A stretch of DNA of 59,682 nucleotides from Frankiaceae bacterium (GTDB taxonomy: Bacteria; Actinomycetota; Actinomycetes; JAFAQI01): assembly GCA_019239875.1 (NCBI GenBank), contig JAFAZI010000141.1, forward strand, positions 1 through 59,682, in the 5' to 3' direction. The translations under genes and the position numbers were made by a program. Positions within the stretch are counted from its first letter, which is position 1. Each line of letters starts with the position of its first letter. Positions 40,868-59,109 of this stretch are shown piece by piece. The notes under the pieces are model-generated. The model had not been told where the DNA came from. It saw nothing but the letters and a program-made list of their open reading frames with translations, and searched no databases.

Positions 40868-40945
40868 GGGCGATTGGCGCAGTCTGGCTAGCGCGCTTCC
40901 CTGACACGGAAGAGGTCACAGGTTCAAGTCCTGTATCGCCCACCA
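40868..40945 (+). tRNA. tRNA-Val (anticodon GAC), integration target
   Basis: Acceptor GGGCGAT pairs with ATCGCCC, anticodon GAC at 40903-40905, T-arm AGGTTCAAGTCCT, and CCA is encoded. The last 48 bases (40898-40945) are repeated exactly at 55198-55245, so the gene is intact but its 3' part now derives from the integrated element. Confidence 0.98.
40898..40945 (+). repeat. attL core: 3' part of tRNA-Val
   Basis: A 48-base stretch from the anticodon stem through CCA is identical to 55198-55245. Bases before and after differ between the two copies, so both edges are sharp. This is the usual result of tyrosine-integrase insertion at a tRNA 3' end. Confidence 0.95.
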
Positions 40946-40971
40946 CACATCACCGCAGGTCAACGCCTAAA

Positions 40972-41835
40972 TTGCGTGCCGAGGCGCTCTTCCGTCGGCA
41001 TCATGAATTGGTGTCGGGTAGCCAAACTGGTAGCCATCCGCCACCGGACTTCGATCTCAGCGCACTCGCGCCGATCTTCCGGCGCATCGAAGAACTAATC
41101 CGCGTGTCAGAAGTTCGCCCCAACGATCCGGCACCGGGCAGCGCATTCGCGGGCGACGTGCGCTGGTCACCGGATTACAACGGTGCCTATCTCGCTCAGC
41201 TCAGTTTCTCGGTCGCAACAGACCATCTGCATGCGCTGCACACAGCGCTAGTGACCGGCAAGACGATCCACACCTACGCACCGTTCACCCTCCTGCGGGG
41301 CACACTCGACAACGCCGCGACTGGCATCTGGCTGCTGATGCCAAGCAAGCGATCGGAACGAGTCTTGCGAGCTCTTCGCGTGGGCGGGCAAAGCATCGTC
41401 GAAGTGAGGGCGATTCACGACATCACCGGTCAGCTGCCGACATCCGGCCGCACTCCTGACCAGCAACTACAAGCCCTCAAGAGTCTCGCCGCGTCGAGAG
41501 GTCTCGACCCGGACCTCGTCGGCGGCAGGCTCGGCACCGCATCCATAATCCGTGCCGCTAGCAACGACGCAGCTCTCAGCGGTTCGGACCTCGAGCTGCT
41601 GTTGTGGCGCGTATGTAGCGGCCTGAACCACGGCCGGTCCTGGGCAACACTTGCGGCGCTCGAGCGCGACGTCGTGGAGAAGACTGGCAACGCGCTCATG
41701 ATCCGCTTGACGGCGCCTTCCGTTCCTCTTCTCGCCACGGCCGAGGTCGCGACCCACATGACCGAGCGGCTTTATGAACTCCTAGAGCTGCGGCGCACAG
41801 ACCACCTTCGACACCTAGGGGTGCCAGGCCGTTGA
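40972..41835 (+). CDS. hypothetical helical protein next to attL
   Basis: Up to 287 residues from a TTG at 40972; the start is uncertain because candidate integrase arm sites lie at 41016-41036, and a start near the FDLSALAPIFRRIEEL helix (about residue 27 on) is more likely. Mostly helical, with FTLLRGTLDNAATGIWLLMP and RVCSGLNH (R213 to H220 by the long numbering), an R-x6-H pattern like HEPN RNases. Similar unnamed proteins occur in actinobacterial accessory regions. Cargo position beside the attachment site is where satellites and prophages often carry defence genes. Function not established. Confidence 0.65.
   Translation: MRAEALFRRHHELVSGSQTGSHPPPDFDLSALAPIFRRIEELIRVSEVRPNDPAPGSAFAGDVRWSPDYNGAYLAQLSFSVATDHLHALHTALVTGKTIHTYAPFTLLRGTLDNAATGIWLLMPSKRSERVLRALRVGGQSIVEVRAIHDITGQLPTSGRTPDQQLQALKSLAASRGLDPDLVGGRLGTASIIRAASNDAALSGSDLELLLWRVCSGLNHGRSWATLAALERDVVEKTGNALMIRLTAPSVPLLATAEVATHMTERLYELLELRRTDHLRHLGVPGR
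41016..41036 (+). promoter_or_regulatory. candidate integrase arm-type sites, left end
   Basis: Two direct GGTAGCCA boxes, starting at 41017 and 41029 (12-bp spacing). The same pair with the same spacing and orientation occurs inside the right end (55085 and 55097). Paired boxes at both ends beside att cores are typical of tyrosine-integrase arm sites. Confidence 0.65.
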
Positions 41836-41897
41836 CGACTGGGCGATCGCCAAATCAGGTGCAGGTCACCTGACGTTCTGGAACGATCGGCCACGTC

Positions 41898-42491
41898 ATG
41901 TCATCGCGTCTGCCTCGGCAACCTCCCGAGTTTCACTTTCGCAACGAAGCGGCCACTCACTGCGCGTTCTGGTTCGACACCGTTGGCATGCAGCGAGAGC
42001 GAATGATTCGCCCGCGCAACCCCGAGACCGACCGGACGAGCTTGCGACTCGCCGATGCGCTCTTCCTCTTGGTCGCGATCTTCCGTCTCCGCCGATCGTG
42101 CAACCTTGTACGGCGAGCCCTTTCAGACGAACCTGTCAGATGCCTAGAGGTTGATGAGGCGGCCGCAGCGTTTGATCAAGCGGTGCCCCAGCTCGACACC
42201 TTTCGTCATGCCACAGAGCACTTCGATGAATGGATCTTCGGCGAAGGTCGCCGGCAGCCACCCGCGGCCGACGGTACATATCCATTTCGAACGAAGGCCA
42301 CGCACGTCCGCGTCCACACCAACGACGCCCGCGGCGATCGATACCTCTTCGAACTCGAAGGAATTGAGATCGATCTCTGCGACGCGGCGGACGCGGCGAG
42401 CCATCTCGGGATCCGACTCAACGGAATTCTGAACAGAGACGCCGACGATTTGCCGCAGCGATACGTCCGTATGCAACAGCGGCGCACCTAA
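41898..42491 (+). CDS. hypothetical protein with HEPN-like RHxxxH motif
   Basis: 197 residues. The N-terminal half is helical (DALFLLVAIFRLRRSCNLVRR), then FRHATEHFDEWIFGEG (R103-H104-x3-H108), the R-polar-x3-H signature of HEPN ribonucleases, followed by a beta-rich end (YLFELEGIEIDL). No full-domain match can be claimed by eye. It lies 62 bp after the preceding cargo gene on the same strand, so the two may form one unit, and its last four bases overlap the end of the convergent integrase gene. Confidence 0.65.
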   Translation: MSSRLPRQPPEFHFRNEAATHCAFWFDTVGMQRERMIRPRNPETDRTSLRLADALFLLVAIFRLRRSCNLVRRALSDEPVRCLEVDEAAAAFDQAVPQLDTFRHATEHFDEWIFGEGRRQPPAADGTYPFRTKATHVRVHTNDARGDRYLFELEGIEIDLCDAADAASHLGIRLNGILNRDADDLPQRYVRMQQRRT

Positions 42492-43636
42492 CTCGCCGTA
42501 CCTCCGAACGCCGCTTCCATCGGCTCAACAGCCGCAACGATCTCTGGCGTCAACAGGTGCCGATAAACCTGAGATGTGACCCGGATGCTCTCGTGGCCGA
42601 GTAGGTCGGCGATCTCTTCGATTCGCACCCCGGCGGCCGACAAGATCGACGCCGCCGAGTGACGGAGCTCGTGCGGGTGCCAGTGGCCGAGGTTCGCCTT
42701 CGTGGTGAGCCTCGAGAACGTCCGCCGGAGATTGGCCGGGTCGACTGGTGTGCCGACACCGGTGGAGAAAACGAGGTCCTGGTCGGACCATGCGGCAGCG
42801 GCGAGCCGCTCCGAGGCCTGGTCACGCTTGAGAGCTCGTAGTGCGTCGACGACGGGGGAAGGCATGCGGAGCGTGCGCCGACTCGTCGAGGTCTTGACGT
42901 CGCCGAGCACGAGATCAGAGCCGTGCCGCAGCAGCGCGCGACGGACCGTGAGGGTGCCCACTTCGAGGTCGACGCAGGACCATGTCAGCCCGAGCAGTTC
43001 GCCCGGGCGGAGGCCGCACATCAGACCCGTGACGATTGCCGCCTCGAGCCGATCGCCCTTCGCGGCTTCGAGCAGCGCCGCTGCCTGCTCGACAGTCAGG
43101 CTCCGCGACTTCCGCACCGAGCCCGCGGGAGTGTCGACCAGCTCGGCGACGTTGCGAGCGATCGCCCCGCGGCGTTCGGCCTGTCGGAGGGCACGCACGA
43201 GCACACTCCGGATGCGCGCGAGAGAGGCCTTCGCCATGCCATCCGCGGCCTTCGCAGCGAGCATCGACTCGACGTCATCAGGAGTCAGGTCGCGCAGACG
43301 TTTGTGTCCAAGCGCCGGGATCAGGTGCTTGTTGATCGCCCACTCGTATACCGCGATCGTGTTTCCCGACTCGGCCTGCGCCGGCGGATTCGCGAGCCAC
43401 GACTCGAGCAGGTCCGCGACCGTCGTTCTCTGATCGCCGACCGGGACACCGTCCTCGACTTTGCGCAGCGCGGCAGAGAGTTTCGCGCGAGCCTCGGCCT
43501 TCGTCCGGCCAGTCACCTTCGCGCGGCGCCGCTTGCCAGCGCCGTCACGGCCGAGGTCGACGAAACCGATCCATCGACCAGCTGCCTCGCTGTAGAAGAG
43601 CGAGCCCTCGCCGTGTTGGCGCCTTTGAGTCGTCAT
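42488..43636 (-). CDS. int: tyrosine site-specific integrase
   Basis: 382 residues. An N-terminal AP2-like arm-binding domain (GEGSLFYSEAAGRWIGFVDLG), a SAM-like core-binding domain (about 72-160), then the catalytic domain with R210 (GLRPGELLGL), K248, H322-x2-R325 (HPHELRHSAAS), H348 and nucleophile Y358 (VTSQVYRHL). This is the form that integrates at tRNA genes, and the AP2-like domain should bind the GGTAGCCA arm sites. It overlaps the upstream zinc-ribbon gene by four bases. Confidence 0.96.
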   Translation of the reverse strand: MTTQRRQHGEGSLFYSEAAGRWIGFVDLGRDGAGKRRRAKVTGRTKAEARAKLSAALRKVEDGVPVGDQRTTVADLLESWLANPPAQAESGNTIAVYEWAINKHLIPALGHKRLRDLTPDDVESMLAAKAADGMAKASLARIRSVLVRALRQAERRGAIARNVAELVDTPAGSVRKSRSLTVEQAAALLEAAKGDRLEAAIVTGLMCGLRPGELLGLTWSCVDLEVGTLTVRRALLRHGSDLVLGDVKTSTSRRTLRMPSPVVDALRALKRDQASERLAAAAWSDQDLVFSTGVGTPVDPANLRRTFSRLTTKANLGHWHPHELRHSAASILSAAGVRIEEIADLLGHESIRVTSQVYRHLLTPEIVAAVEPMEAAFGGTAS

Positions 43637-44610
43637 CGTTTCCCCGCCCTATACACGGCGGCCCCCTTTGCTCGCTGACGTTGCTTATATCGACGCGCCG
43701 CGGCCCTCTGCGCCGCGGCAAGCCCGCACTTGGGACACCAAGAGCGCTCACCCGGTCTGGGCTGCCGCTTGGGAACGAAGGGGCGAGCGCATCCGGCACA
43801 GATCGCGAACCCGTCCGCCTGGGAGAAGATGAGCGCCAACTGCAGCGCGACCGATCCCAGCGGACCATGAGGCTGAATCTCGAGCTGGAAGGAGTCGGAG
43901 GATCCCAAGATCGGCATGTTGAATCGAACCTGGATAGCCGATAGCCCGAGGAATCCGTCGACGCCGTTCGCCAGCATCGCCGTGTCGAGCCTCAAACGAG
44001 CCGCCTCCGTGGGCTGCTGTTTGCAAAACAGTGACCAGTGACCAGTGACATCCAGCAGGGCCACTCGCTCATCATCGACGGGGCGACCGAGCTGGACGGT
44101 GGCCGCCGCGAAGAGCAGCGCCCGAACATATTCGGACCACCGGATGACGTCAGCAATTCGGATAACTAGCTGTCCGGCGACACGCTGTCGCCGGCACACA
44201 CCGCGACGGGTCGTGGACCGAAGGAGGCCGAAGTCGTCCCGCACCTTGGCGCTCGGCGCGACATGCGCCATCGGCATTCCGTGAACGCATAGCTCCGGAA
44301 CGCCCCACTCGCCCGCAAAGCGCACGACCGCGTCGTGATCAGTGGGGGTGGTCGCGAGGGCCAGGAAGTCGTCGAACAACGCTGGGCCTCCCTGCGTCAC
44401 CTTGTACTCGAATGAGTCGTCTGTGACCGTGCCCTCGGCGTCCCAATACAGGAAGCCAGATTTGTGCCAGGCCTTGGCCGGGACCAGCCAGCCACCGACG
44501 TGCGCTGGCCGACCCAGGTCACCGCTCCCGTCGTCATCGGTAAAACCTGCCTGCGCCCACGCGATCTCGTCCGCAGGCCAGACGGGCGCAGCGTGTTCGC
44601 GCTTGGTCAT
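43633..44610 (-). CDS. hypothetical protein with C-terminal zinc ribbon, coupled to the integrase
   Basis: 325 residues from the ATG at 44610; the longer open frame reads through the divergent excisionase gene out of phase. No N-terminal domain is recognised. The C terminus has CAGCARPFVPKRQPRPGERS then CPKC, a CxxC-x(n)-CxxC zinc ribbon followed by a basic helix (RRYKQRQRAKG), as in several actinobacterial phage/ICE proteins. The four-base overlap with int suggests co-regulation. A divergent promoter region of 87 bp separates it from the excisionase-like gene. Confidence 0.72.
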   Translation of the reverse strand: MTKREHAAPVWPADEIAWAQAGFTDDDGSGDLGRPAHVGGWLVPAKAWHKSGFLYWDAEGTVTDDSFEYKVTQGGPALFDDFLALATTPTDHDAVVRFAGEWGVPELCVHGMPMAHVAPSAKVRDDFGLLRSTTRRGVCRRQRVAGQLVIRIADVIRWSEYVRALLFAAATVQLGRPVDDERVALLDVTGHWSLFCKQQPTEAARLRLDTAMLANGVDGFLGLSAIQVRFNMPILGSSDSFQLEIQPHGPLGSVALQLALIFSQADGFAICAGCARPFVPKRQPRPGERSWCPKCGLAAAQRAAARRYKQRQRAKGAAVYRAGKR

Positions 44611-44697
44611 AGTCAGTTCATAGCGGCATGGACTAGGACGGTCAAGGATGGACCCACGATTCGTTTGTCCGGCGTGTCGAACGGAAGGCGGATCGCG

Positions 44698-44883
44698 TTG
44701 AGAGACAAGTTGATGTACCGAGTTCCCGAGGCGGCAGAACTGCTGGGCATCGGCCGATCCAAACTCTTTGAGCTGATGGCGGCCGGACAAATCGAATCGG
44801 TGAAGGTCGGCCGATCGAGGTTGATCCCCGCCGCTGCCCTGGACAAGTTCGTGGCGCGGCTTTGCGGCGACCCAGCCGCCTGA
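44698..44883 (+). CDS. xis: excisionase-like helix-turn-helix protein
   Basis: About 61 residues from a TTG with GGAAGG nine bases upstream; an ATG at 44713 would give 56. The sequence MYRVPEAAELLGIGRSKLFELMAAGQIESVKVGRSRLIPAAALDKFV is a compact MerR/Xis-type DNA-binding domain. It is divergent from the int-containing operon and begins the plus-strand run of element genes, so it may control excision and the early promoter. Confidence 0.85.
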   Translation: MRDKLMYRVPEAAELLGIGRSKLFELMAAGQIESVKVGRSRLIPAAALDKFVARLCGDPAA

Positions 44884-44890
44884 GCGACGC

Positions 44891-45691
44891 ATGACCCGCG
44901 TCCGATTCGATCCGTACTTTTTCACGGATCCTAGGTGGGAGCGGCTTGGCGCAGACGCCTTCATCCTTCACCAGTGCGCGTGTGCCTACGTCGTGAGCAA
45001 CCTCACCGATGGGTTCGTGTCGACCTCACGCGCACCAACTCTCGCGCCCGGCCTCGTGAAGCGACCGAAGACGGCGATCGCCGCATTGCTCGATGACGGC
45101 CTCTGGACACCTACAGATGGCGGTTACAAGGTCTGCGTTTGCCTCGACAACCTCCGAACCTCGGCCGGCCGCGGTGACGAGCAGCCGAGCCGCGCATACG
45201 TCGAAGGCGAGCGCGAGCGCCTCGCACGTAACAAGGCAGCTTGGGCCGAGCGTCAGCGCAAACAGAAGGTTGCTGACCCGGGAATCGATTCCCTGCCGAC
45301 GATCACGGGACCGGTTGAAGAATCGATTCCGAATCATCAACAGACCAGTACGGATCAGTACGGGACAGGGACTACGTCCCCTGTCCCTGTCCCGATGTCT
45401 TCGCTCGTCGCCGCCACTGGGCGGACCGACGACGAGCCGGGCAAGGCATCCGGGCCAAGCCGAGATCCAGAGGAATGCACGCGGCGCGGCCTCGAGCAGC
45501 TCGTCAAGGACCGCGGCCTCGGCGTCGATGTCGACGAGCTGCTCGGCTTCGCCTACGACCTGAACGATGACCCCTGGCGCGGGTATCTGCTCATCAAGGC
45601 CTTGACCGAGAAGGGACTCGGTGCGAATCGGGCTGCGACCGTCCGATCACGAATTGCGCGTGCCATTCGTGAGAATGCGGGCGCAGCCTGA
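44891..45691 (+). CDS. putative phage-type replication initiator/organiser
   Basis: 266 residues. The N terminus (VRFDPYFFTDPRWERLGADAFILHQCACAYV and IAALLDDGLWTP) resembles the winged-helix region of phage replication or replisome-organiser proteins, followed by a variable linker and a helical C terminus (GLEQLVKDRGLGVDVDELLGFAY). The role is inferred from this pattern and its position right after the excisionase gene. It shares one base with the next gene (TGATG). Confidence 0.5.
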   Translation: MTRVRFDPYFFTDPRWERLGADAFILHQCACAYVVSNLTDGFVSTSRAPTLAPGLVKRPKTAIAALLDDGLWTPTDGGYKVCVCLDNLRTSAGRGDEQPSRAYVEGERERLARNKAAWAERQRKQKVADPGIDSLPTITGPVEESIPNHQQTSTDQYGTGTTSPVPVPMSSLVAATGRTDDEPGKASGPSRDPEECTRRGLEQLVKDRGLGVDVDELLGFAYDLNDDPWRGYLLIKALTEKGLGANRAATVRSRIARAIRENAGAA

Positions 45692-45888
45692 TGGCGCGTG
45701 ATCGCTACGGCGACCAGGTCGACGGCGAGTATTCCGGCGGAATACCGCGTGAACATGACCCGGGCTGCCACAACGGTTGGCTGGGTACGGAAGATCACCC
45801 AACGCCGTGCCCCGCGTGCAAGCCACACCTAGTGCGCCGCGCTGGCAACTGGACGGTCGATCGCTCGCGTATTCGGAACGCATCGTGA
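45691..45888 (+). CDS. small zinc-ribbon protein
   Basis: 65 residues. CHNGWLGTEDHPTPCPACKPH has cysteine/histidine spacing typical of small zinc ribbons found in actinophages. Copy A of the element's TATTCC-N3-GGAATA palindrome (45730-45744) lies inside its coding sequence. Overlaps both neighbours (TGATG and GTGA). Confidence 0.7.
   Translation: MARDRYGDQVDGEYSGGIPREHDPGCHNGWLGTEDHPTPCPACKPHLVRRAGNWTVDRSRIRNAS
45730..45744. repeat. element palindrome, copy A (TATTCCGGCGGAATA)
   Basis: A perfect 15-bp inverted repeat, 6-3-6, extending to 17 bp (45729-45745). Two other copies with different centres occur in the element (47747-47761 and 52480-52494); the palindrome was not noticed outside the element. 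Confidence 0.75.
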
Positions 45889-46256
45889 CGGCCGGCGCGA
45901 GACGATGTGTGGGCTGCGGCCAACGGTTGCCGGAGCGTTGCCGATCGGACAGGCGCTTTTGCTCAAAAGCGTGCCAGGAGACGCATAACGTTCGTCGCTG
46001 TTCGGTCGATGGCTGTGACCAAGCACATCGCGCGCGCGGCCTGTGTTCGACGCACTACAACGAGCGTCATCAGCCCGCCAGGCATCGGAAGCGACCCGTC
46101 CACTGCAGCTACTGCGGTGACCCGTGTGTCAAGGAGCCGTCGAGCAGATATACGCATCGGTATTGCTCGCTCACCTGTCGAGATCTCCACAGCCTCGAGC
46201 TGACAACCGGTGATCCATTCAGAAACCGCCGGGTCACGACGCAGGTAAGCCGATGA
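45885..46256 (+). CDS. multi-zinc-finger protein related to phage HNH-associated fingers
   Basis: 123 residues from a GTG overlapping the previous stop. Three cysteine clusters: CVGCGQRLPERCRSDRRFC, CSVDGCDQAHRARGLCSTHY (the finger that usually precedes phage HNH endonucleases) and CSYCGDPCVKEPSSRYTH then YCSLTC. No HNH catalytic motif follows, so it is either a binding protein or a catalytic remnant. It overlaps the next gene by four bases. Confidence 0.72.
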   Translation: MTAGARRCVGCGQRLPERCRSDRRFCSKACQETHNVRRCSVDGCDQAHRARGLCSTHYNERHQPARHRKRPVHCSYCGDPCVKEPSSRYTHRYCSLTCRDLHSLELTTGDPFRNRRVTTQVSR

Positions 46257-46711
46257 CCGAGACCAACCTGCGTGCGGCCTACGGCGAGTTCGTTGTCCTC
46301 TCGACGGACGCCGCGCGCGAGCTCTATCGCCTGGCGCTCTTCGGCGCTCAGGTTCTACGAAGCCGAGACGGCGGGGGCGGGTTCCGCCCAGGTTCCGCCG
46401 ACCTAGTCGAGTTCCTCAGCCCGATGTTGAGCATCGATGCAGGTCAGACGAGCGCCACCGAGATACTGCTCGAGCCAAGTTCCGGGCCCTTTGCGGATCA
46501 TGCGGAACTTCGCCGACAGTCACCGAGTGCTGTCACAAGCGTCGAAGCCGCCGTTCGTTGGGACTGCGAAGACACGTACGTTCGCCGGCTATGCCGCGCG
46601 GGGCGGATCCCGGGCGCCACGAAGGACGACGCCGGCGCGTGGCAAATCCCGATCGAAGCGCTCAGCACTCCCCTATCCGAACTACCGCGCGTGACATCGA
46701 CGAAGGGCTGA
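46253..46711 (+). CDS. hypothetical protein with C-terminal helix-turn-helix
   Basis: 152 residues. The last ~60 residues (VTSVEAAVRWDCEDTYVRRLCRAGRIPGATKDDAG then WQIPIEALS) look like an excisionase/MerR-type HTH in which the recognition helix follows VRR. The N-terminal part is unrecognised. Starts within the stop of the zinc-finger gene (ATGA), so the four genes from 45691 are one translational unit. Confidence 0.7.
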   Translation: MTETNLRAAYGEFVVLSTDAARELYRLALFGAQVLRSRDGGGGFRPGSADLVEFLSPMLSIDAGQTSATEILLEPSSGPFADHAELRRQSPSAVTSVEAAVRWDCEDTYVRRLCRAGRIPGATKDDAGAWQIPIEALSTPLSELPRVTSTKG

Positions 46712-46716
46712 CGGAG

Positions 46717-47400
46717 ATGGCCAAGGCAACACGACTGCTCGACCGAGCACGCAAGTTCATCCAGCGGATGCGTGACACCGCGCAAAAGCGCGACGACGAC
46801 CTGGACGCCATCGATATCGCCGGCCGGACGCAGGACTGGGTGAACGAACGACGCGCGCAGATCCGGATGACAGCGCTAGAGCAGCTGACCTCCCTCTACG
46901 ACGAAGCGCGGAACACCCTCGACGAGGCCGAAGCCGCTGCGGCCGCAGAGCTCGCCGGCTCCCCAGACACGGCCGCGGAGATCAGGCGCAGCCGCTCCAC
47001 CGATCGCGTGGTGCGGATGCTGGAAGGGAACCAGCCCGTCGAGGTCGCAGGCGTACTTGCCGGCGCCGGCGACGTCGACGGGCTGCGGGCGCTACGAGAG
47101 GAACTGCCGACCTACCTGCAGCGCACCATGAACCCGGCCAGCTGGCGCGACGCGGCGACGCGCACCCGCACAATCGCCAGCCAGCAGCTCATGGTCGATC
47201 GCGCATTGCGCGAGCTCCTCGTCGGCTCGCAGCGCGACGCGATCGACGCTGCCCTCAGTGTCGACGCGGTCCGTCGGCAACTCCACGCCACCTGGGTAAT
47301 GCTGACCCAGCCGAACCGGGGTTTCGAAGCAGCCGTGCAACTGCAGTACGCAAAGGCTGACGACTTCGCCGCAGAGTCGGCAACCACGTCCCGCAGCTGA
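46717..47400 (+). CDS. hypothetical alpha-helical protein
   Basis: 227 residues from the ATG at 46717 (GGAG three bases before it); the open frame extends upstream in the shadow of the previous gene. Rich in Ala, Glu and Arg with long helices (ALEQLTSLYDEARNTLDEAEAAAA) suggestive of coiled coil. No domain recognised. It might be a structural or scaffold-like element gene, but nothing specific supports that. Confidence 0.6.
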   Translation: MAKATRLLDRARKFIQRMRDTAQKRDDDLDAIDIAGRTQDWVNERRAQIRMTALEQLTSLYDEARNTLDEAEAAAAAELAGSPDTAAEIRRSRSTDRVVRMLEGNQPVEVAGVLAGAGDVDGLRALREELPTYLQRTMNPASWRDAATRTRTIASQQLMVDRALRELLVGSQRDAIDAALSVDAVRRQLHATWVMLTQPNRGFEAAVQLQYAKADDFAAESATTSRS

Positions 47401-47404
47401 CCCG

Positions 47405-47638
47405 ATGCGACCGAGACCACCAGCAGGCGTCGAGGCTCGACGTGCGTGGGTCCGCGAGAACGTGCCCGATTGGAACGCGGACGCGATGACCGCGAGTGAC
47501 CTTGCGCGCATCTCCAGTTCAGGTGACTGCATCGATGTCGTGGGTCTCACGGATTCCGACCGCGCCCGGATCGGGCTAATGCCGAGCCGCAACATGCGCG
47601 GCCGCGACGACGTCTGGACGTCGATGTGGGCCTGCTGA
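47405..47638 (+). CDS. small hypothetical protein
   Basis: 77 residues, starting 4 bp after the previous stop. The sequence has WVRENVPDWNADAMTASDLARI and DVWTSMWAC and no recognised domain. Co-oriented with the upstream genes and followed by a gap with a hairpin, so it is probably the last gene of that transcript. Confidence 0.5.
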   Translation: MRPRPPAGVEARRAWVRENVPDWNADAMTASDLARISSSGDCIDVVGLTDSDRARIGLMPSRNMRGRDDVWTSMWAC

Positions 47639-47668
47639 AACCCCCGGGGGGGTCCCCTGCTCGTGCGC

Positions 47669-47696
47669 GAGCGCCGAACCCTCGGAGAGGGCGCTC
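47669..47696. terminator. hairpin after the first element gene block
   Basis: GAGCGCC (47669-47675) and GGCGCTC (47690-47696) are complementary around a 14-base loop, which could also form CCCTC-GGA-GAGGG. It lies between the gene ending at 47638 and the one starting at 47783; no T-run follows, so a terminator role is tentative. Confidence 0.4.
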
Positions 47697-47746
47697 AGAA
47701 GTCGGTCAGGTTCAAAGGATTCCCAGGACCCCTTGCACACATCTGA

Positions 47747-47761
47747 TATTCCGCCGGAATA
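47747..47761. repeat. element palindrome, copy B (TATTCCGCCGGAATA)
   Basis: Perfect 6-3-6 inverted repeat lying 21 bp before the start of the gene at 47783, where a regulatory protein would affect the promoter or start of the tape-measure operon. Confidence 0.75.
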
Positions 47762-47782
47762 CCGGGCGGTCGGGAGGCCGAG

Positions 47783-48040
47783 ATGACAGGTCATGAAGAC
47801 GCGGTCCAGAAAGCGGTCGATCGCCTTCTGGGATCGCTGCTCGAGATGGGTGTCGCGGACCGCCAGCACGGCACCACCAAGCTCGCCTCGATCATCGTCG
47901 GCGCACGAGCCGCGGTCGCGGAAACCCTCGGTGACCTCGCGGGCGTCAACGTCGTGTCAACGTTCTGGGACTCCCTCGATCAACTTGCGTCCGCAGTCCA
48001 GGCGCATGTCGACGCGGAGGTAGGGGGCCACCATGGCTGA
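47783..48040 (+). CDS. small hypothetical protein overlapping the tape-measure gene
   Basis: 85 residues, helical (AVQKAVDRLLGSLLEMG and VVSTFWDSLDQLASAV). It overlaps the tape-measure start by eight bases. In phages this position holds a tail assembly chaperone, but I see neither chaperone similarity nor a slippery sequence. Function unknown. Confidence 0.6.
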   Translation: MTGHEDAVQKAVDRLLGSLLEMGVADRQHGTTKLASIIVGARAAVAETLGDLAGVNVVSTFWDSLDQLASAVQAHVDAEVGGHHG

Positions 48041-51000
48041 GCGGACCGTTGTCGTTCGACTGCGTGCAGAGGTCTCGGACTACACGGCGAAGCTCGAGGT
48101 CGCGGGACGGGTGACCCAGGACCTCGAACGCAAGGTCGCGATGGCGACTGGCAAGACCGCGGCCGGCTACCGCCAACTCGGCCTGGGCATGGTCGCTGCG
48201 GGCGGGCTAATCGTGGCGGGATTGGGGGGCGCCGCAAAGGCGGCCGCTGATTTTGACGCGAAGATGGCGCTGGTCCGGACCCTCGCGAAGGCGTCGCCGG
48301 CCGACATGAGTCGGCTACGCGCGGCGGCTGAAACTGTCGGCCAGGCGTACGGGTACAGCGCCGGTCAGGTCGCCGACGCAGAAGCTGAGCTTGTCAAAGC
48401 AGGCGTGTCGGTGTCCGACATCATGGGCGGTGCGCTCAAGGGTGCGCTCACCCTGGCCGCGGCCGGACAGACCGACGTTGCGACCGCGACCGAGGTCGCC
48501 ACGGTCGCGATGACGCAGTTCGGCCTCAAGGGCAAAGACATCCCGCACGTCGCGGATCTGCTTGCTGCCGGCGCAGACAAAGCGCTGGGATCGGTCACCG
48601 ACCTCTCGTACGCCCTGGACCAGGCGGGCCCGCAAGCCTCGCAGTTCGGTGTGTCCCTCGAGGAGACCGTCGGCACTCTGGCAGCGTTCGCGAACGCCGG
48701 TCAGGTCGGTGAGCGCGGCGGCACCGTGTTCTCGCAGATGCTTCTGCAGCTCGCCGCGCCGAGCAAGCAAGCTTCCGACCTCATGCGGAGACTCGGAATC
48801 GACGCGTACGACGCCGGCGGCCAGTTCGTCGGGATGGCCGGCCTCGCGGGGCAGCTGCAAGACAAGATGTCGGGCCTGACCGGTCAAGAGCGCACTCACG
48901 CGCTCGCCGTCATCTTCGGCGCCCGCGCGATCCGAGGCGCCAACATCCTGTACCAGCAGGGTGCCGCTGGCATCGAGGGGTGGACGAAGAACGTCGACGA
49001 TTCTGGGTTCGCCGCGCTGCAGGCCGCCGGCAAGATGGACAGCCTTCGTGGCGATGTCACAAAGCTCGGCACTGCGCTTCAGACCGCGTTCATTGGGGCC
49101 GGTGAGGGCGCGCAAGGACCGCTACGAGGGCTCGTGCAGGACGCGACCGCCGTGGTCAACAAGTTCAACGAGCTACCCGGTCCCGCGAAAACGGTGGGTA
49201 CAGTCCTGGTCGGCGTGGCCGGTGCCATCACGCTCGTCGGTGGCGCGGCCATCCTTGCCGTTCCCAAGATCGATGCGTTCGTCACGGCGATGGAGTCCCT
49301 GACCGGCACGGCCGTCAGTGCGCGGGGGGCGCTCGGCCTAGTCGGCAAGGCGGCGCTCGGTCTCACGTTGATCCCCGCGATCGACATGGGTCTCGACAAG
49401 CTCGACAGCCTGTGGATCGACGCGCCAAAGGTCGACGCACTCGCCGCGAGCCTGCTCACACTAGGGGAGAGCGGACAGACCAGCGGCGCGATGCTCGACA
49501 CCTTCGGGCCCAAGCTCGAAAAGATCGGCGCGATGGTCCGGGCGGTCACCAGGCCATCGCTCGGAAGCCAGGCGTGGAGCGGCGTGAGTCATATTCCCGT
49601 CCTGAACTGGGGCGAGAAAGTCGAGAAAGCTTTCGGATCGAACCCGTACGCGAATGTTGACGAGGCCCGCGTCAAACTAGCGGCGCTCGACGACGCGCTG
49701 ACCCAGCTGGCCGACAACAACCAGATGAGCGTCGCGCGGGACAAGTTCGCCACCATCGAGCGCGCGATCGAACGGTCAGGCTTGTCCGCCGAAAACGCCG
49801 CTGGTGTCTTTCCGCACTTCGCGAGCGCAGTGAACATGGCAGCCGTGCGGAGCGGCAACGCGGCCGCTGGCGCAGGATCGCTGGGCGACCAACTTGACGC
49901 ACTTGTGCCGCCTGCTAAGCAGGCGGCGTCGGCGACCGACATGGCCGCCAAGTCGATCAAGCGCTACCAGGACGCCCTGCACGCGCTCAACGACCCTCTG
50001 TTCGCGATGAACCAGGCGCTGCAGGATCTCAAGGCGAAGCAGGACGCTGCAGCCAAGGCGACTCAGAAGTACGGCAAGGACTCGCACCAAGCCAAGCAGG
50101 CCAACCTCGAGCTGGCTCAGTCGGCGATGGAGGTCCACGGCTCGGCGCAGGCTCTCGCGAAGTCCTGGGCTGCGAGCGGCGTGACTCTGGGCAAGGCCCG
50201 CAAAGAGCTCCGCGCGTGGACCAAGGACGGGTCTCTCACGAAGCATCAGGCCGACCAGATCCTGCAGTCGTTCGGGCAGCTCATCGGCAAGGCGAAGGTC
50301 ATGTCCGGGATCGACGCGAAGATGACCGTCGGCGTCCAAGACAACGCCAGTTCGCCACTCGACCGGCTCAACGAGAAGGTCCACGCGCTCACCAACGTGC
50401 CTCACACCGTCCGGGTCACCACGCTGATCACGACGGACAAGGCACCGGGCCGCGCGTCTGGAGGCGGGCTGCCGGAAGGTTGGGCGGCGGTCGGCGAGCA
50501 GGGCCCGGAGCTGGTGCACAAGAGCGGCGGGCGCGTCGACGTCTTCTCCAACACGGCGTCACGGGGGATCGTCGCCGCGACGGGGATGCGTGCGCCCGGG
50601 TTTGCCGGCGGCACCGGCCGAGCTGATCACGTGGTCGCGCACCTGCAGCGCATCCTGTCGAACCCGGCGTCGACCGGACTGCAGATCGCGCGTGCCCTGG
50701 AGATGCTCGACAAGCTCTCCGTCGCATGGCAGGCGACCGTCACCGAAATCAACCAGGCGGCTCAGCACCGCAGCCTCCTGCGCGACGTCGCCAAGGCCCA
50801 TGACGCGCTCAAGAAGGCGAACAAAGAGAACGGCAGCAACGCCAAGGCCGACGTGCACTCAGCCACCCAGCAGCTGAACCAGGCGCGTAAGGCACTCGAG
50901 GAGTTCCGCAAGCAAGCCGCGATCGACCGCGCGACCCGGAAGATCGACGCAGCGACAGCGCGGCTGCAGGCGAAGGAAACCCTCGAGGCGAACCGTGAGG

Positions 51001-51674
51001 CCTTCGAGTTCGACCGGATGAGCTCCGCCGAACAGCTGCGTTACCTCGAGCACCGGATGGCGAAGGAGAAGAAGTACTCCGACCAGTGGATGTCCGACGC
51101 GCAGCAGCGGCAGCAGATCCTCGACCAGCAGCGCCAGACCGCCGAGTCGCTGTCGGAGTTCATCAACCCGACTCAGCAGTCCAGCGTCGGGTTCGCCCCG
51201 TCGATCGGCCAGCTGGTCAGCAATGGCGAGGGACAGGTCGACCAGTTCACCCAGTGGCTCGAGCAGCTCGACCTCGCCCGCCACAAAGGCCTGTCCAAAG
51301 CGGCGGTCGCGATGCTCGGTCTCGACTCGGGACCGGACCAGCTCGCCGAGCTCCTGCAGATCAACAAGGGCAGCGCCGTGCAGATCCACGAGCTCAACGA
51401 GATCGCCCGGGCCCGCAAGCACCTCAGCCGGGTCGGGGCGAAGGCCACCCTGTTCGACTCCGGAGGCGTGTGGCCGTCAGGCACCCTCGGCATCAACCTG
51501 TCCGGACATGACGAGCTCGTCGTACCGCACGGCAAGTGGCAGACCTCCGCGCCGTCCTCGATCGACGTCAAGGTGTACGTCGGCGACCGGGAGATCACCG
51601 ACATCGTCCGCGTCGAGCTGAACACCCGCGACCGCGACGCCGGCTACCGCGACAGAAGGGTCACCCACAGGTGA
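48033..51674 (+). CDS. phage tail tape-measure protein (TP901 type)
   Basis: 1213 residues. The N-terminal region (about 50-350) has the hydrophobic GMVAAGGLIVAGLGGAAKAA stretch followed by helical repeats typical of TP901/PhageMin_Tail tape measures. Glycine-rich links with the family's VGEQGPELV sequence lie near residue 825 and a similar FDSGGVWPSGTL near 1150, and a coiled coil spans about 905-1035. In siphophages this protein sets tail length and leaves with the DNA; about 0.15 nm per residue would mean a ~180 nm tail. It is the only tail gene seen in the element, with no tube, terminator, tip or chaperone gene. Whether it is functional or a remnant is open; the frame is intact. Confidence 0.92.
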   Translation: MAERTVVVRLRAEVSDYTAKLEVAGRVTQDLERKVAMATGKTAAGYRQLGLGMVAAGGLIVAGLGGAAKAAADFDAKMALVRTLAKASPADMSRLRAAAETVGQAYGYSAGQVADAEAELVKAGVSVSDIMGGALKGALTLAAAGQTDVATATEVATVAMTQFGLKGKDIPHVADLLAAGADKALGSVTDLSYALDQAGPQASQFGVSLEETVGTLAAFANAGQVGERGGTVFSQMLLQLAAPSKQASDLMRRLGIDAYDAGGQFVGMAGLAGQLQDKMSGLTGQERTHALAVIFGARAIRGANILYQQGAAGIEGWTKNVDDSGFAALQAAGKMDSLRGDVTKLGTALQTAFIGAGEGAQGPLRGLVQDATAVVNKFNELPGPAKTVGTVLVGVAGAITLVGGAAILAVPKIDAFVTAMESLTGTAVSARGALGLVGKAALGLTLIPAIDMGLDKLDSLWIDAPKVDALAASLLTLGESGQTSGAMLDTFGPKLEKIGAMVRAVTRPSLGSQAWSGVSHIPVLNWGEKVEKAFGSNPYANVDEARVKLAALDDALTQLADNNQMSVARDKFATIERAIERSGLSAENAAGVFPHFASAVNMAAVRSGNAAAGAGSLGDQLDALVPPAKQAASATDMAAKSIKRYQDALHALNDPLFAMNQALQDLKAKQDAAAKATQKYGKDSHQAKQANLELAQSAMEVHGSAQALAKSWAASGVTLGKARKELRAWTKDGSLTKHQADQILQSFGQLIGKAKVMSGIDAKMTVGVQDNASSPLDRLNEKVHALTNVPHTVRVTTLITTDKAPGRASGGGLPEGWAAVGEQGPELVHKSGGRVDVFSNTASRGIVAATGMRAPGFAGGTGRADHVVAHLQRILSNPASTGLQIARALEMLDKLSVAWQATVTEINQAAQHRSLLRDVAKAHDALKKANKENGSNAKADVHSATQQLNQARKALEEFRKQAAIDRATRKIDAATARLQAKETLEANREAFEFDRMSSAEQLRYLEHRMAKEKKYSDQWMSDAQQRQQILDQQRQTAESLSEFINPTQQSSVGFAPSIGQLVSNGEGQVDQFTQWLEQLDLARHKGLSKAAVAMLGLDSGPDQLAELLQINKGSAVQIHELNEIARARKHLSRVGAKATLFDSGGVWPSGTLGINLSGHDELVVPHGKWQTSAPSSIDVKVYVGDREITDIVRVELNTRDRDAGYRDRRVTHR

Positions 51675-51694
51675 AACCAAGCCTGGTAAATGCG

Positions 51695-52417
51695 TCACGG
51701 GCTGAGTGGCGCGCGATAGTCAGCAGGATCTCCGACTAGCGGCGCCGTGCGCCAATCCCGCTGCAGCGTTCGTACCAGCTCGTGGGCGATCTGACGCATG
51801 TTCGCTTCGGCCCACGCGTACGCCGGAAACGGCACCTCCTCGTCCCCGACATGATTGAGCATGCCAAGGCGATCATCGAGCAACGCCACGTACTCGGGAT
51901 CGAGCGCGGGATCGACGTGCGCACCACCGTCCGTGTTGGCCATGGCAAGGACGAGGCGACCGCGACTCCACCAGTCGCCCTTCGACGCTTCGATGACTTT
52001 GTCGTTCCACCAATCCCGGAACGGCATCGGAGGATTCACGCGACCAGCGTGCCCGTCGCCAACAGCATCCCAACTACTCGAAGCAGTCGAAGTCGACGCG
52101 GTCGCTGTCATCGTGATTCGGTTGCACGCCAGACCCTGTTCGGACAGGATCAGCACGCCAGGCTCGGGATTCAGCCGAGTGTCCACGAACCGAATCCCGC
52201 GGATCAAGTTGAGCTGATCGAGCAGCGATCGCGAACTCATCGTCGTATGCACCAATACGCGCGCTGAGACAGCCAACGTTCGGGACCGATACCGCTTGCC
52301 GGCATCGAACGCCGCGCAGTCGTCGACGAGAAGCTCGTACTGATGGCCAAGGGCGCGCTCGAGGTCCTCACGGCTTCGCGGCGTGCGGTGCTCCTGAACT
52401 CGAGGTTTCCTGGTCAT
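51695..52417 (-). CDS. conserved hypothetical protein
   Basis: 240 residues. YELLVDDCAAFDAGKRYRSRTLAVSARVLVHTTMSSRSLLDQL near the N terminus and NTDGGAHVDPALDPEYVAL later resemble a widespread family of unnamed proteins found in accessory regions. No catalytic motif is obvious. Copy C of the element palindrome lies 63 bp upstream of its start, and it is convergent with the tape-measure gene (20 bp apart). Confidence 0.65.
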   Translation of the reverse strand: MTRKPRVQEHRTPRSREDLERALGHQYELLVDDCAAFDAGKRYRSRTLAVSARVLVHTTMSSRSLLDQLNLIRGIRFVDTRLNPEPGVLILSEQGLACNRITMTATASTSTASSSWDAVGDGHAGRVNPPMPFRDWWNDKVIEASKGDWWSRGRLVLAMANTDGGAHVDPALDPEYVALLDDRLGMLNHVGDEEVPFPAYAWAEANMRQIAHELVRTLQRDWRTAPLVGDPADYRAPLSP

Positions 52418-52479
52418 CCAGTCAATGGTGACGGCTCAATCGCCGAGTAGCCACCGATTTCAACCTCGCCGCGCGGCGG

Positions 52480-52494
52480 TATTCCACCGGAATA
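52480..52494. repeat. element palindrome, copy C (TATTCCACCGGAATA)
   Basis: Same 6-3-6 inverted repeat as copies A and B with ACC in the centre. It lies between the 3' end of the second recombinase gene and the start of the conserved hypothetical gene at 52417. Confidence 0.75.
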
Positions 52495-52538
52495 TTCGAC
52501 AAGGCCCCGGCGAGATCCGTCGTAGCCCGTCGCGGGTC

Positions 52539-53660
52539 TCAGGTCGTGGCCGCGGCGGTCACCGCCCGCCGCATCGCGTCCGAGGGCACAGCGGCATACC
52601 GGGCGGTCGTCGTCGGGCTTGTGTGACCGAGGAGCTCCTGGACGGCGAGCAGATCACGGTCGACGGCGTACGCCTTGGTGGCGAACGCATGACGCAACGT
52701 ATGTGCTGTCCACCGTTCCTCGAGCGCAGCGGCCATCAGCCGGCCGACGTGACCAGCCGACATGTGGCCGTCGACCTGGCCGGGGAACAGATATCCGCCG
52801 CCAGCTGCGGCGATCGCGGCCGCGAGGTCCTCACTCACCGGGACGAGCCGCGTGCGGCCCCCCTTCCCTGTCACACGTAGCAGCCCGTCAACTAGGTCAT
52901 CTGCGTGCACTCTGGCAATTTCGGCTCTTCGAAGTCCCGCGTGCGCGCCAAGCATGAGCATCAGTCGGACACGCCCCAGCGACTCGTCAAGCGACCGGCG
53001 CACCACCGCGTTGGGTGCGGGCCTCGGCTTTCCGGGCGGGACCCGCACGGCCGGCAGACGAGCCGATGGGTCGTCCCCGATCAGTTCGGCCGCCGCTGCC
53101 CAGCGGTAGAACGAGCGGAGGGTTACCGAGTGCGCCTTGCGGGTCTCCGCCGCCCACGTTGCCGAAGCGAGGTACGCGACCAGGTCGCGCGTCGAGACCT
53201 GCCAGGGCGAAGGATGCGACTCGGCGAACCGAGCGAGCAGGGCGAGCCTCAGTCGAATCGTCGACTCGGCGTGATTCGAAGCCCGCGAGTGCAGCAGCCA
53301 CTCAGCAATCGGTTGCCGCCACCGGATCGGGAACTTGGCCGTCGAGCCCGCGCGAGGATGCGCTGGTCCGCCTGCTCGGGTGGAAGCCTGGTCCACTGGG
53401 TTATCGAGCCGGACACCCTCGTGCACGAGCCATCGGAACCACGAGTGAAGGTAACTGCGGTAGGTCGCTCGTGTGTGCGCACTGACTCTGCGTGCGATCA
53501 GGAAGGCCGCGATCGCCTCCGGCCTGGCCCGTTCGAGGTCCACACCTGCGGCCGCGAGCTGCTCGACGAGCCGTCGGCGTTCAGCGATCAGCGACTCGCT
53601 GACGGCATTTTCGCGTTGCCACGCGCACCACCGAGCTAGGTCCCGCTTTGTCGCGCTCAT
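52539..53660 (-). CDS. XerC/D-like tyrosine recombinase with apparent duplicated core-binding region
   Basis: 373 residues from the ATG at 53660, overlapping the upstream DUF6907-like gene (ATGA); the longer open frame runs through that gene out of phase. Catalytic residues R244 (AGLRRAEIAR), K266 (TGKGGRTRLV), H320-x2-R323 (HTLRHAFATKAY), H346 (LLGHTSPTTT) and Y355. Two SAM-like core-binding segments seem to precede the catalytic domain: residues ~20-90 (RATYRSYLHSWFRWLVHEG) and ~112-200 (HSVTLRSFYRWAAAAELIG). Most Xer-like enzymes have one. It is unrelated in detail to the integrase at 42488, so it is not a copy of it. Confidence 0.88.
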   Translation of the reverse strand: MSATKRDLARWCAWQRENAVSESLIAERRRLVEQLAAAGVDLERARPEAIAAFLIARRVSAHTRATYRSYLHSWFRWLVHEGVRLDNPVDQASTRAGGPAHPRAGSTAKFPIRWRQPIAEWLLHSRASNHAESTIRLRLALLARFAESHPSPWQVSTRDLVAYLASATWAAETRKAHSVTLRSFYRWAAAAELIGDDPSARLPAVRVPPGKPRPAPNAVVRRSLDESLGRVRLMLMLGAHAGLRRAEIARVHADDLVDGLLRVTGKGGRTRLVPVSEDLAAAIAAAGGGYLFPGQVDGHMSAGHVGRLMAAALEERWTAHTLRHAFATKAYAVDRDLLAVQELLGHTSPTTTARYAAVPSDAMRRAVTAAATT

Positions 53661-54001
53661 CCGCTGATCCGCTCGTAGATGCTTATCGCCTCGGCGAGCT
53701 CGGTGGCGACCTGCCGCGCCTTCTCGATCGAGATGCCCGTGCCCTCTTCGGTCCACATATCGATCGCGGGCTGATCGATGGTGACCCGACCGTCGTAATT
53801 GGTTTCGTACGCCGTCACACCGACGTAATCGCGCTTCAACGCAGTGTGGAATCGGCTCTGCGTGAATGGCTCGGCGGGGTCGACGATCTCGTAAGGATGG
53901 CTGGCTGGCTCGACGCACCACGGCGGGCACGGCGGCGGCGTGAGTGTGCTGGCGAACGCCTCGTCGACCTGATCGGCCAGGTCCCCTGTGAAGTCCTCCA
54001 T
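53657..54001 (-). CDS. DUF6907-like protein
   Basis: 114 residues with a CPPWCVEPASHPYE motif, the Cys-Pro-x-Trp-Cys...His pattern of the DUF6907 family found on actinobacterial plasmids and integrative elements. The rest is acidic (EEGTGISIEKARQVATELAEAISIYERI). Four-base overlap with the second recombinase suggests it acts with it, as a small partner similar to the zinc-ribbon gene upstream of the integrase. Confidence 0.7.
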   Translation of the reverse strand: MEDFTGDLADQVDEAFASTLTPPPCPPWCVEPASHPYEIVDPAEPFTQSRFHTALKRDYVGVTAYETNYDGRVTIDQPAIDMWTEEGTGISIEKARQVATELAEAISIYERISG

Positions 54002-54203
54002 GTCACTTCCACCGCCTGGTCGATTCGGTGGTGTGCAGTGGACCGCTCTTGCCGTGAAAGGCTCGCATCGGGCCCCTCACCTCCCTATAGGTGTTGGGTC
54101 AAGGGCTCGCCTGGAGTTGACGCTCCGGGCGAGCCCGTCTTAGTTCGTGACCGTACACAGTCGTCCACATAATTGTCAGTGGTACTTCGTAGTGTTTCTT
54201 CGC

Positions 54204-54467
54204 ATGGGAATGACATTCGAGTTCAACGAAGAAGGCATCGAGAAGATGCTCGCCCAAGCGAAGGACACGCTCGAGGCCCAAGCAAACCCGCGGCTGCGAG
54301 ACGCCGTCCGAGCGGTGCGTGACCGTTATGCCGGCGAAGATGCGGGAACCGTCTACCAGCAGCTCGTCGCCGAGATCACTTCGGAACTGGGCCCGAAGTT
54401 TGACCCCAATGAGGCAAACCTTCGCGCCGTTGCGCAGGCGATCGTCGACGGCACGCTGACGGGCTGA
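54204..54467 (+). CDS. small hypothetical acidic protein
   Basis: 87 residues from the ATG at 54204 (MGMTFEFNEEGIEKMLAQAKDTLEAQ); an earlier in-frame start at 54147 is less likely. Mostly helical and acidic, with no recognised domain. Eight bases before the next gene. Confidence 0.6.
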   Translation: MGMTFEFNEEGIEKMLAQAKDTLEAQANPRLRDAVRAVRDRYAGEDAGTVYQQLVAEITSELGPKFDPNEANLRAVAQAIVDGTLTG

Positions 54468-54474
54468 AACAAGC

Positions 54475-55089
54475 GTGGCTCGGAGTCGGATCCGCTTTGC
54501 ATTCACTATCGCCGACGGCCCGAACGCGTATCTGACGTCCGGCGGGTGGCGAGTGTGGGTGTCCGGTGACACCGTCTACCTCACGGCGAAGCCTCTCGAA
54601 GGCACATGGAAGGTCTCCCTGCACGGCGACAGCGCCTGGCGTTCAGCTGTGACGACCGAACACCTGCAGACCGAAAACCCGGTCTGGGCTGCGGATCAAG
54701 ATCGTGCCCCCTGGAAGTTCGAGCCAACGAAGTTTGAGAACGGCGTTCGAATGATGTTCGCGCTGGCGATGTCCCGGGGCGCACTTGGCCCGTGGGCCAT
54801 CGACGAGACCGAGCTACACATCAAGGTCGAAGACAGGTGGGACGAGATCACAATCGCCTACCTCTGGCAATCCGAGTCCGGAGTTACGCCGCCAGTCGCT
54901 CGCAGGCCGATCGGACCCGTACTGGAGATGGCCAACGGTCGACGAGTCTGGCTTACCGCCGGCACTGAACCGGTCGCGATGGCAAAACCTGAGCCGGTCC
55001 CCGCCACCGCAATGATCGAGCCCCGCTCACCCTCCGAGCATGACGTGCGAGCGCCCGGCTGGCTTGTTCGAGGCGTCCACCTTGGGTAG
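54475..55089 (+). CDS. hypothetical protein at the right end of the element
   Basis: 204 residues from a GTG. Contains SGGWRVWVSGDTVYLTAKPLEGTWKVSLHGD and several tryptophans in a beta-rich region, then a Pro/Ala-rich C terminus. No recognised domain. Ends six bases after the start of the right-hand arm-site pair, which would therefore overlap its stop codon. Confidence 0.6.
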   Translation: MARSRIRFAFTIADGPNAYLTSGGWRVWVSGDTVYLTAKPLEGTWKVSLHGDSAWRSAVTTEHLQTENPVWAADQDRAPWKFEPTKFENGVRMMFALAMSRGALGPWAIDETELHIKVEDRWDEITIAYLWQSESGVTPPVARRPIGPVLEMANGRRVWLTAGTEPVAMAKPEPVPATAMIEPRSPSEHDVRAPGWLVRGVHLG

Positions 55090-55104
55090 CCATTCTGGTA
55101 GCCA
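55084..55104 (+). promoter_or_regulatory. candidate integrase arm-type sites, right end
   Basis: Direct GGTAGCCA boxes at 55085 and 55097, 12 bp apart, as in the left end (41017, 41029). They lie 94 bp inside the attR core, against 71 bp for the left pair. Confidence 0.65.
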
Positions 55105-55197
55105 AACGCGGCGCACTTCCCCGCACGCTTGCGGACGCGAGCAGACTGATTCCCGATCGACTCGGACCTTGACGTACGTGCCCGTACAGCCTGGCCG

Positions 55198-55245
55198 TCC
55201 CTGACACGGAAGAGGTCACAGGTTCAAGTCCTGTATCGCCCACCA
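55198..55245 (+). repeat. attR core: duplicate 3' tRNA-Val fragment
   Basis: 48 bases identical to 40898-40945; the sequence before it does not form the 5' half of a tRNA. It marks the right end of the element. Confidence 0.95.
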
Positions 55246-55273
55246 GAGAAAAGCGTTGGTACTGCGAGGGAAT

Positions 55274-55320
55274 CCTCTCAACCTAAGAGGCACGTGTCAG
55301 ATACGTGTCAGATTGAGAGG
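55274..55320. repeat. tandem and inverted repeats just outside attR
   Basis: ACGTGTCAGAT is repeated head to tail (55292-55302 and 55303-55313), and CCTCTCAA (55274-55281) and TTGAGAGG (55313-55320) bracket it as an inverted repeat. Position 30-75 bp beyond attR resembles arm sites of a different integrase, perhaps left by an earlier element at the same tRNA. The rest of 55246-55481 shows no gene or other structure. Confidence 0.5.
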
Positions 55321-55481
55321 GACGAATGAGCGTCTGAAGACGCCGCGAGATCGCCGCCGAGTACCACGAGGTCGCGAGCCTGTTGGATGTCCGACGCGTA
55401 AGGCACTTCGCATGCGGCCTCGATCTAACTACAGGCGGTCGGTTCGTGGGTCGATGGCGGGCCAGTTAGCATCATCCACTT

Positions 55482-56132: not shown

Positions 56133-56212
56133 CCGGTGTGCGATTGCGCTTGAAACGATGTGCGGCGAGGGCATCCACCTGCGCCGACGCCTCTCCGCGA
56201 ATGATCATGGAC

Positions 56213-56247
56213 TTTGTGGCACGGCGCGCGGCGTGTCCTGCCACAAA
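56213..56247. terminator. terminator-like inverted repeat between convergent genes
   Basis: TTTGTGGCA (56213-56221) and TGCCACAAA (56239-56247), perfectly complementary around a 17-base GC-rich loop, lie between the methyltransferase-like and DUF2277 genes. On each strand the stem ends in a short T-run. Confidence 0.6.
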
Positions 56248-56268
56248 CCGCATGGTCAACGGCGGACG

Positions 56269-56538
56269 CTACGACGCGTAGCGGGTGGCGGCGCGGGCGC
56301 GTGCCTTGGCCGCCTCCTCCTCGCGGTTCTTCGGGGGCGACACGGCGGTGAGCTCGTCGAGCAGTCGCACGGTGATCGCCGTGACGTCGGCGACGGCTTG
56401 GTCGAACGCGGCGGCGTTGGCCTGCGACGGTTTCGCCGTACCGCTGATCTTTCGCACGTATTGCAGCGCTGCGGCGTGCGCCTCATCCCGCGTGGCGGGC
56501 GGTTCGAAGTTGTGGAGCGTTCGGATGTTGCGGCACAT
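56269..56538 (-). CDS. DUF2277 family protein
   Basis: 89 residues. MCRNIRTLHNFEPPATRDE followed by AAALQYVRKISGTAKPSQAN is the hallmark of the small DUF2277 family, whose function is unknown. It is 21 bp downstream of the cupin gene on the same strand, so the two may be co-transcribed. Confidence 0.92.
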   Translation of the reverse strand: MCRNIRTLHNFEPPATRDEAHAAALQYVRKISGTAKPSQANAAAFDQAVADVTAITVRLLDELTAVSPPKNREEEAAKARARAATRYAS

Positions 56539-56559
56539 GTCGCCAGGGTAAGCCGCGAG

Positions 56560-59101: not shown

Positions 59102-59109
59102 GACGGCGG

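Follow-up and report, generated by a model that had tools for sequence, protein, structure and literature searches.

The window, meaning the whole 59,682-nucleotide stretch of Frankiaceae DNA analysed here (contig JAFAZI010000141.1, from one draft assembly of 206 contigs), contains a discrete 14.3-kb element inserted in a tRNA-Val(GAC) gene (40868-40945, + strand, identified by ARAGORN) that belongs to a tRNA cluster common to relatives. Two perfect 48-bp direct repeats on the + strand, the attL core at 40898-40945 and the attR core at 55198-55245, lie 14,300 bp apart, and both match the 3' part of this tRNA gene. In seven other genomes of the order, the Gly-Cys-Val cluster has only one copy of the 48-bp core within the sequence read. 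At the empty site of genome G012 (locus L092), homologues of the host genes on the window's right flank (57891-59349) follow 0.4-2.1 kb after the tRNA, and this direct adjacency identifies the 14.3 kb as an insertion. With its length, repeats, integrase and empty site, the element meets the size and insertion criterion for phage satellites (about 7-20 kb, integrase, att repeats). The genes between attR and the conserved host block (55246-57812) also lack a counterpart at the empty L092 site and may perhaps represent another insertion at the same tRNA.

Gene models come from our own simple predictor, and 20 reading frames of the window were scanned against Pfam and PHROGs, which detected integrases, a replication initiator, weak zinc and HTH matches, PHROG 7805 and a tape measure protein (TMP). 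Between attL and the integrase lie two unknown, possibly cargo proteins without Pfam, PHROG or PADLOC matches (41011-41835, +, and 41898-42491, +, start uncertain); PADLOC found no defence gene in the window's cargo. A tyrosine integrase (42488-43636, -; PF00589 E=5e-27, phrog_1 6e-74) is followed by an unknown protein with C-terminal Cys pairs (43633-44610, -), which has no family match and resembles a zinc ribbon by eye only. From 44713 to 51674 all genes point rightward, mostly abutting or overlapping. This run opens with a 56-aa HTH protein known as a gene model (44713-44883, +), which clusters with a small HTH protein of a related element, L029, and whose excisionase role is inferred. It continues with a replication initiation protein-like gene (44891-45691, +; phrog_2447 9e-12), a zinc-finger/HNH-like protein of uncertain start (45777-46256, +; weak zf-FCS match, 0.0014; phrog_1271 7e-8) and a protein with a C-terminal HTH_17 domain (46253-46711, +; 7.5e-4), the position of which is kept in nine lone-TMP elements by alignment. 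Two orphans come next: a 227-aa helical protein with a weak structure model and no family or phage match (46717-47400, +), and an unmatched 85-aa protein (47783-48040, +) that overlaps the TMP start by 8 nt. The TMP itself (48033-51674, +; PF10145 3.7e-48, phrog_1533 3e-89) comes last in this co-directional run with the replication and HTH genes, and its frame is uninterrupted, with 1213 codons and no stops.

To the right of the TMP lie an unknown protein of phage family PHROG 7805 (51695-52417, -; E 6.7e-40), a second tyrosine recombinase (52539-53660, -; PF00589 E=2e-18), a small protein, known from its gene model, with a CPPWC motif read from the sequence (53657-54001, -), an 85-aa unknown gene model without a PADLOC match (54210-54467, +) and an unknown protein of uncertain start with no Pfam match and no significant PHROG match (54475-55089, +). 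Motifs similar to CPPWC were seen by eye, without a statistical test, in two related elements, L003 and L035 (CPDWC, CTEWC). A second recombinase at the end far from the integrase recurs in L072, L073, L076 and L078 (E 1e-35 to 1e-56). The idea that this gene is a peculiarity of lone-TMP elements was dropped because a homologue adjoins the tail module of viral contig L098 (273-1196). In L073, a 122-bp repeat (94%) at 5659-5780 and 6437-6558 spans two adjacent second-recombinase genes, possibly the trace of a tandem duplication.

The two orphans before the TMP have positional counterparts in L003, where a 229-aa gene occupies the slot of the 227-aa protein and an 82-aa gene likewise overlaps the TMP start. 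No similarity of the 85-aa protein to phage chaperones is detectable; its slot is possibly that of a small terminase (TerS) or chaperone, a role that remains unproven. Membership of the 227-aa protein in the coiled-coil family of L024, L035, L073 and L075 is not supported (hhalign probability below 1%). AlphaFold models of the 227-aa protein (pLDDT 44) and of the chaperone-like protein of L024 (pLDDT 40) are too poor to use, and no relatives of the 227-aa protein, of the coiled-coil family or of the C-terminal part of the TMP turned up in scans of viral contigs.

Besides the TMP, the element contains no other recognisable virion gene. The Pfam and PHROG scan of the 20 frames detected no capsid, portal, terminase, tube, tip, lysis or conjugation family, and no FtsK/TraB-like translocase or relaxase, the hallmark of integrative conjugative elements. 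Nor is any TerS, chaperone, hub, capsid or capsid-size/remodelling gene recognisable in the element. When all predicted proteins of 21 full-module TMP loci were compared with it by tblastn, only TMP and integrase similarity appeared; remnants or disrupted copies of other virion genes, a hallmark of prophage decay, were absent at E<=1e-3. In the genome as a whole, the PF04860 portal is absent and no second TMP was detected. The element thus meets the satellite criterion of lacking a full set of virion and lysis genes. An earlier note, made from sequence alone, had described a 14.3-kb element between 48-bp repeats in tRNA-Val(GAC), with an intact 1213-residue TMP, an integrase and second recombinase, and no recognisable tube, tip, capsid, portal, terminase, lysis or conjugation gene; all of this held, while its zinc-protein calls rest on weak evidence.

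The TMP is related to those of siphophages. Its best segment (residues 1-766) is 52% identical to the TMP of viral contig L037, which is surrounded by a head and tail module, and residues 1-423 are 47% identical to the TMP of Arthrobacter phage Constance. The C-terminal third diverges from phage TMPs, the last 423 residues having only short matches in phage records. At 1213 residues the protein is longer than the L037 TMP (1020) and about equal to that of L038 (1208). Lone TMPs of other elements are mostly near the length of their phage relatives (L056, 928 vs 899-912; L024, 910 vs 930; L029, 960 vs 969). The phage lambda ruler measures about 0.15 nm per residue; by this analogy, a 1213-residue ruler would set a tail of roughly 180 nm. 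A TMP gene in pieces, with two internal TAG stops, occurs in genome G464 (L074, 431-3883) and exemplifies decay of such a gene.

Elements built on the same plan recur in three actinobacterial families. A TMP search in 395 genomes of the class gave 19 with a match at E<=1e-20, and 18 of these (G113 was left out) were read in stretches of up to 20 kb. Head or tail genes lie near the TMP in 13 of the 18 and are missing in five, the window included (G000, G005, G168, G289, G337). Two further searches, each within one genus and subject to bias from the query used, contributed L054 and L056 from genus g63, and L072, L073, L075, L076 and L078 from genus g11 (inferred to be Mycobacterium-like from its closest phage genes); the latter also gave a twelfth relative, L077, which has a capsid gene. 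The 11 further capsid-less lone-TMP elements belong to family f1 (L003, GenBank JAICMG010000067.1, a Frankiaceae MAG), family f36 (L024 from Microbacterium sp. K24, L029, L054, L056) and family f5 (L035, L072, L073, L075, L076, L078). Recurrence was assessed from these genome searches and not from a profile scan of genome contigs with a four-TMP alignment, which confirmed at least six loci. The labels "lone" and "full" are based on stretches of about 20 kb; for L029, L054, L075 and L076, reading past the first stretches led into host genes or to the integrase end, with no virion genes on the way.

Elements with att repeats measure 9.6 to 16.3 kb; no repeats were found for L029, L054, L035, L075 and L076. 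The tRNA-Val(GAC) gene is the site of the window element, L003, L024 and L078, and in L003 the genes run in the opposite orientation to the window's, with the TMP end adjoining the tRNA. The usual order is integrase, HTH gene, replication protein or primase, zinc or WhiB-like protein and the aligned C-terminal-HTH protein, followed by a coiled-coil, scaffold or protease gene, a small gene and the TMP. L029 and L054 agree with each other in gene order and occupy different tRNAs, which makes it probable that the plan was present in their common ancestor. The lone-TMP element L035 (1-19462) uses a serine integrase and, as judged by eye, appears to sit in a comM/yifB-like gene next to dprA; it carries a transposase gene (8293-9597) between its coiled-coil and TerS genes. 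Genome G402 harbours both a prophage with a full head and tail module (L055) and a lone-TMP element at tRNA-Lys (L056). The two form a natural candidate pair, though only a possible one, as the L056 TMP is closer to that of another phage, L026.

Several relatives place recognisable assembly or packaging genes beside the TMP. Small terminases (phrog_4479) occur in L035 (3e-35) and L075 (6e-32), and the L035 TerS shares about 70% identity, along most of its length, with mycobacteriophage TerS proteins such as those of Avani and Yoshi. L035 and L073 encode a tail assembly protein (phrog_17360; 6e-39, 4e-37); the L035 copy shares about 51% identity with the tail assembly chaperones found in M. abscessus prophages. 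In L024, one protein matches a profile of ten phage chaperones (hhalign E 4.9e-6), and a head scaffold was also matched (4e-10). Just upstream of the TMP, L072 (13709-14635), L076 (13692-14609) and L078 (5453-6496) encode prohead proteases (PF04586) that are considerably extended at the C terminus. These elements have no capsid gene, and the products could be satellite-encoded proteases or scaffolds acting on a helper head, although this is only a possibility. L077 (7452-13622), bounded by 40-bp repeats at tRNA-Arg, encodes a protease-like protein and an HK97-type capsid (PF05065 2.7e-46) together with its TMP; it has no other recognised tail gene and resembles a cf-PICI that has a TMP as well. 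The strongest reason for reading the class as satellites is that the capsid-less relatives carry genes for steering assembly and packaging but no shell, tube or motor.

In the TMP tree, the window and L003 proteins group with phage contig L037, and the lone/full label changes eight times, at least seven of them on supported branches. Since shuffled labels average 9.4 changes, the label is not significantly clustered, and the tree alone does not tell repeated TMP capture apart from the alternative that the other genes were lost repeatedly. Capture is favoured by the common backbone and the lack of remnants. Selection is visible in the lone-TMP pair L029/L054, where the first 500 codons have pN of 0.01-0.21 vs pS of 0.34-0.49 and the middle part diverges freely. 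This indicates purifying selection on the N-terminal half in a related pair, not in the window copy, whose TMP is too divergent from that of L003 for a firm selection ratio.

Among characterised systems, the PLE satellites of Vibrio cholerae offer a functional parallel, since they too are integrated elements with their own TMP. They encode a TMP, a chaperone and a hub, proteomics placed the PLE11 TMP and hub in virions, and in three PLEs transduction fell by 96 to 99.9% once tmp was deleted (PMC12987554). That study states that no other satellite had previously been reported to encode a TMP and lists further putative satellites, cf-PICIs among them, with predicted tmp genes (PMC12987554 Extended Data Fig. 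10). In PLEs the TMP is built into chimeric tails, and L024, L035 and L073 likewise pair the TMP with a chaperone-type tail assembly gene. However, the PLE helper is the contractile-tailed lytic phage ICP1, whereas the window TMP is of the siphophage (TP901/PF10145) type in actinobacterial hosts; no sequence kinship is claimed. Of the PLE-type tail-hijacker features, the window element has its own TMP and lacks its own chaperone and hub gene. The earlier note's statement that known satellites hijack heads or whole tails is therefore out of date, and its inferred function, a satellite ruler that alters a helper's tail, is no longer unprecedented.

The cf-PICIs and the candidate PICIs of Mycobacterium are likewise small, integrate at tRNA genes and have genes for replication; some cf-PICIs have predicted tmp genes, and L077 shares with them a capsid, protease and TMP. 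A capsid gene defines that group, yet it is absent from the window element and its 11 relatives and met only by L077. A survey of Mycobacterium satellites required a major capsid and an integrase gene (PMC10654092), and a capsid-based search of this kind would miss the elements described here; a survey of actinobacterial prophages merely suggested that small elements may be satellites (PMC10023795). SaPIs and PICIs resemble the class in their int, HTH and rep genes and, for L035 and L075, in a small terminase next to assembly genes, but the small terminase or capsid-size gene that characterises them is missing from the window element, and SaPIs are not known to carry a TMP. Siphophages such as L037 and Constance have a related TMP, while the head and tail module of L037 is absent from the element.

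Taken together, the window element is probably a phage satellite whose own TMP goes into tails that a helper otherwise builds, although no helper, induction or particle has been shown. On this model, siphophage infection or induction would lead the element to excise and replicate, and the operon would be read through to the TMP. The helper would supply capsid, portal, terminase, tube and tip; its TMP would be replaced by that of the satellite, which would assemble with this tube and tip. The resulting particles would have chimeric tails whose length and ejection properties are set by the satellite, with possible gains in competing with helper virions, evading TMP-directed inhibition or suiting the recipient membrane. 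In relatives, TerS, chaperone, head scaffold or protease may steer packaging and assembly; the window's 227-aa and 85-aa orphans occupy those assembly-gene slots, and their roles are unproven. Several points weigh against the satellite reading: no helper is identified, with neither a PF04860 portal nor a second TMP in the window's genome; the element has no recognisable gene for TerS, a chaperone or capsid remodelling; selection was measured on a related pair; and the host sequence is a single draft assembly. In the case of the window element by itself, TMP function is inferred from the class as a whole, and helper, induction and transduction are all unproven.

The best-surviving rival is a decayed prophage, that is, a complete temperate phage reduced to integration and replication genes and a functionless TMP. 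Related TMPs do sit in full tail modules (L037, L038, Arthrobacter phages), cryptic prophages are common in Actinobacteria (PMC10023795), and the two internal stops in G464 show that such genes can decay. Against this stand the intact 1213-codon frame, the lack of any remnant of neighbouring tail genes, the position of the TMP inside a replication operon, the same plan kept in independent elements, the purifying selection in L029/L054, the repeated independent origin on the TMP tree and the assembly-redirecting neighbours in relatives, which together make decay unlikely. The note had preferred a satellite to simple decay, and this is largely supported. The architecture whose recurrence it proposed as a check is found in several hosts without a tail module, including three other tRNA-Val(GAC) sites. 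As a refutation it had named related elements with the TMP beside a full tail module and the window copy clearly deleted. TMPs with similar N-terminal regions do sit in full tail modules, as in L037, which is expected of any phage-derived TMP, but nothing marks the window copy as a deletion derivative.

Less likely still is a satellite or defence island whose TMP is a decoy: it would protect the host by poisoning the assembly of helper tails and would not become part of working satellite tails. The PLE11 tail-assembly inhibitor Rta works through the phage TMP, which makes tail assembly an effective target, and the divergent C-terminal third could render the TMP dominant-negative. However, the TerS, chaperone, scaffold and protease genes beside the TMP in relatives point to particle production, and lone TMPs are mostly near the full length of their phage relatives. 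A conjugative- or tailocin-type element, with the TMP as a DNA channel or bacteriocin part and no helper phage, is very unlikely: actinobacterial integrative elements are likewise built on integrase, HTH and Rep genes, and hydrophobic segments occur in TMPs, but there is no FtsK/TraB-type or relaxase match and no tube, sheath or tip gene, and relatives carry packaging and head genes.

There is also a bolder reading, for and against which the case is evenly balanced: capsid-less, TMP-centred satellites would form a widespread, repeatedly evolved actinobacterial class, in which a ruler repeatedly captured from local phages serves as the core hijacking factor and replaces capsid remodelling. The principle of a satellite-encoded TMP is not new (PLE, 2026, PMC12987554), while the capsid-less actinobacterial class seems unreported, as no report of capsid-less TMP satellites in Actinobacteria was found in the open-access literature searched. 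The first demonstration that satellites manipulate tails dates from 2026 and concerns a single Vibrio family. An actinobacterial set with several independent TMP origins would, if true, make tail manipulation a common strategy, and a lone-TMP class would explain small islands that escape capsid-based searches. Culturable hosts such as Microbacterium allow direct tests of the helper specificity of such tail rulers.
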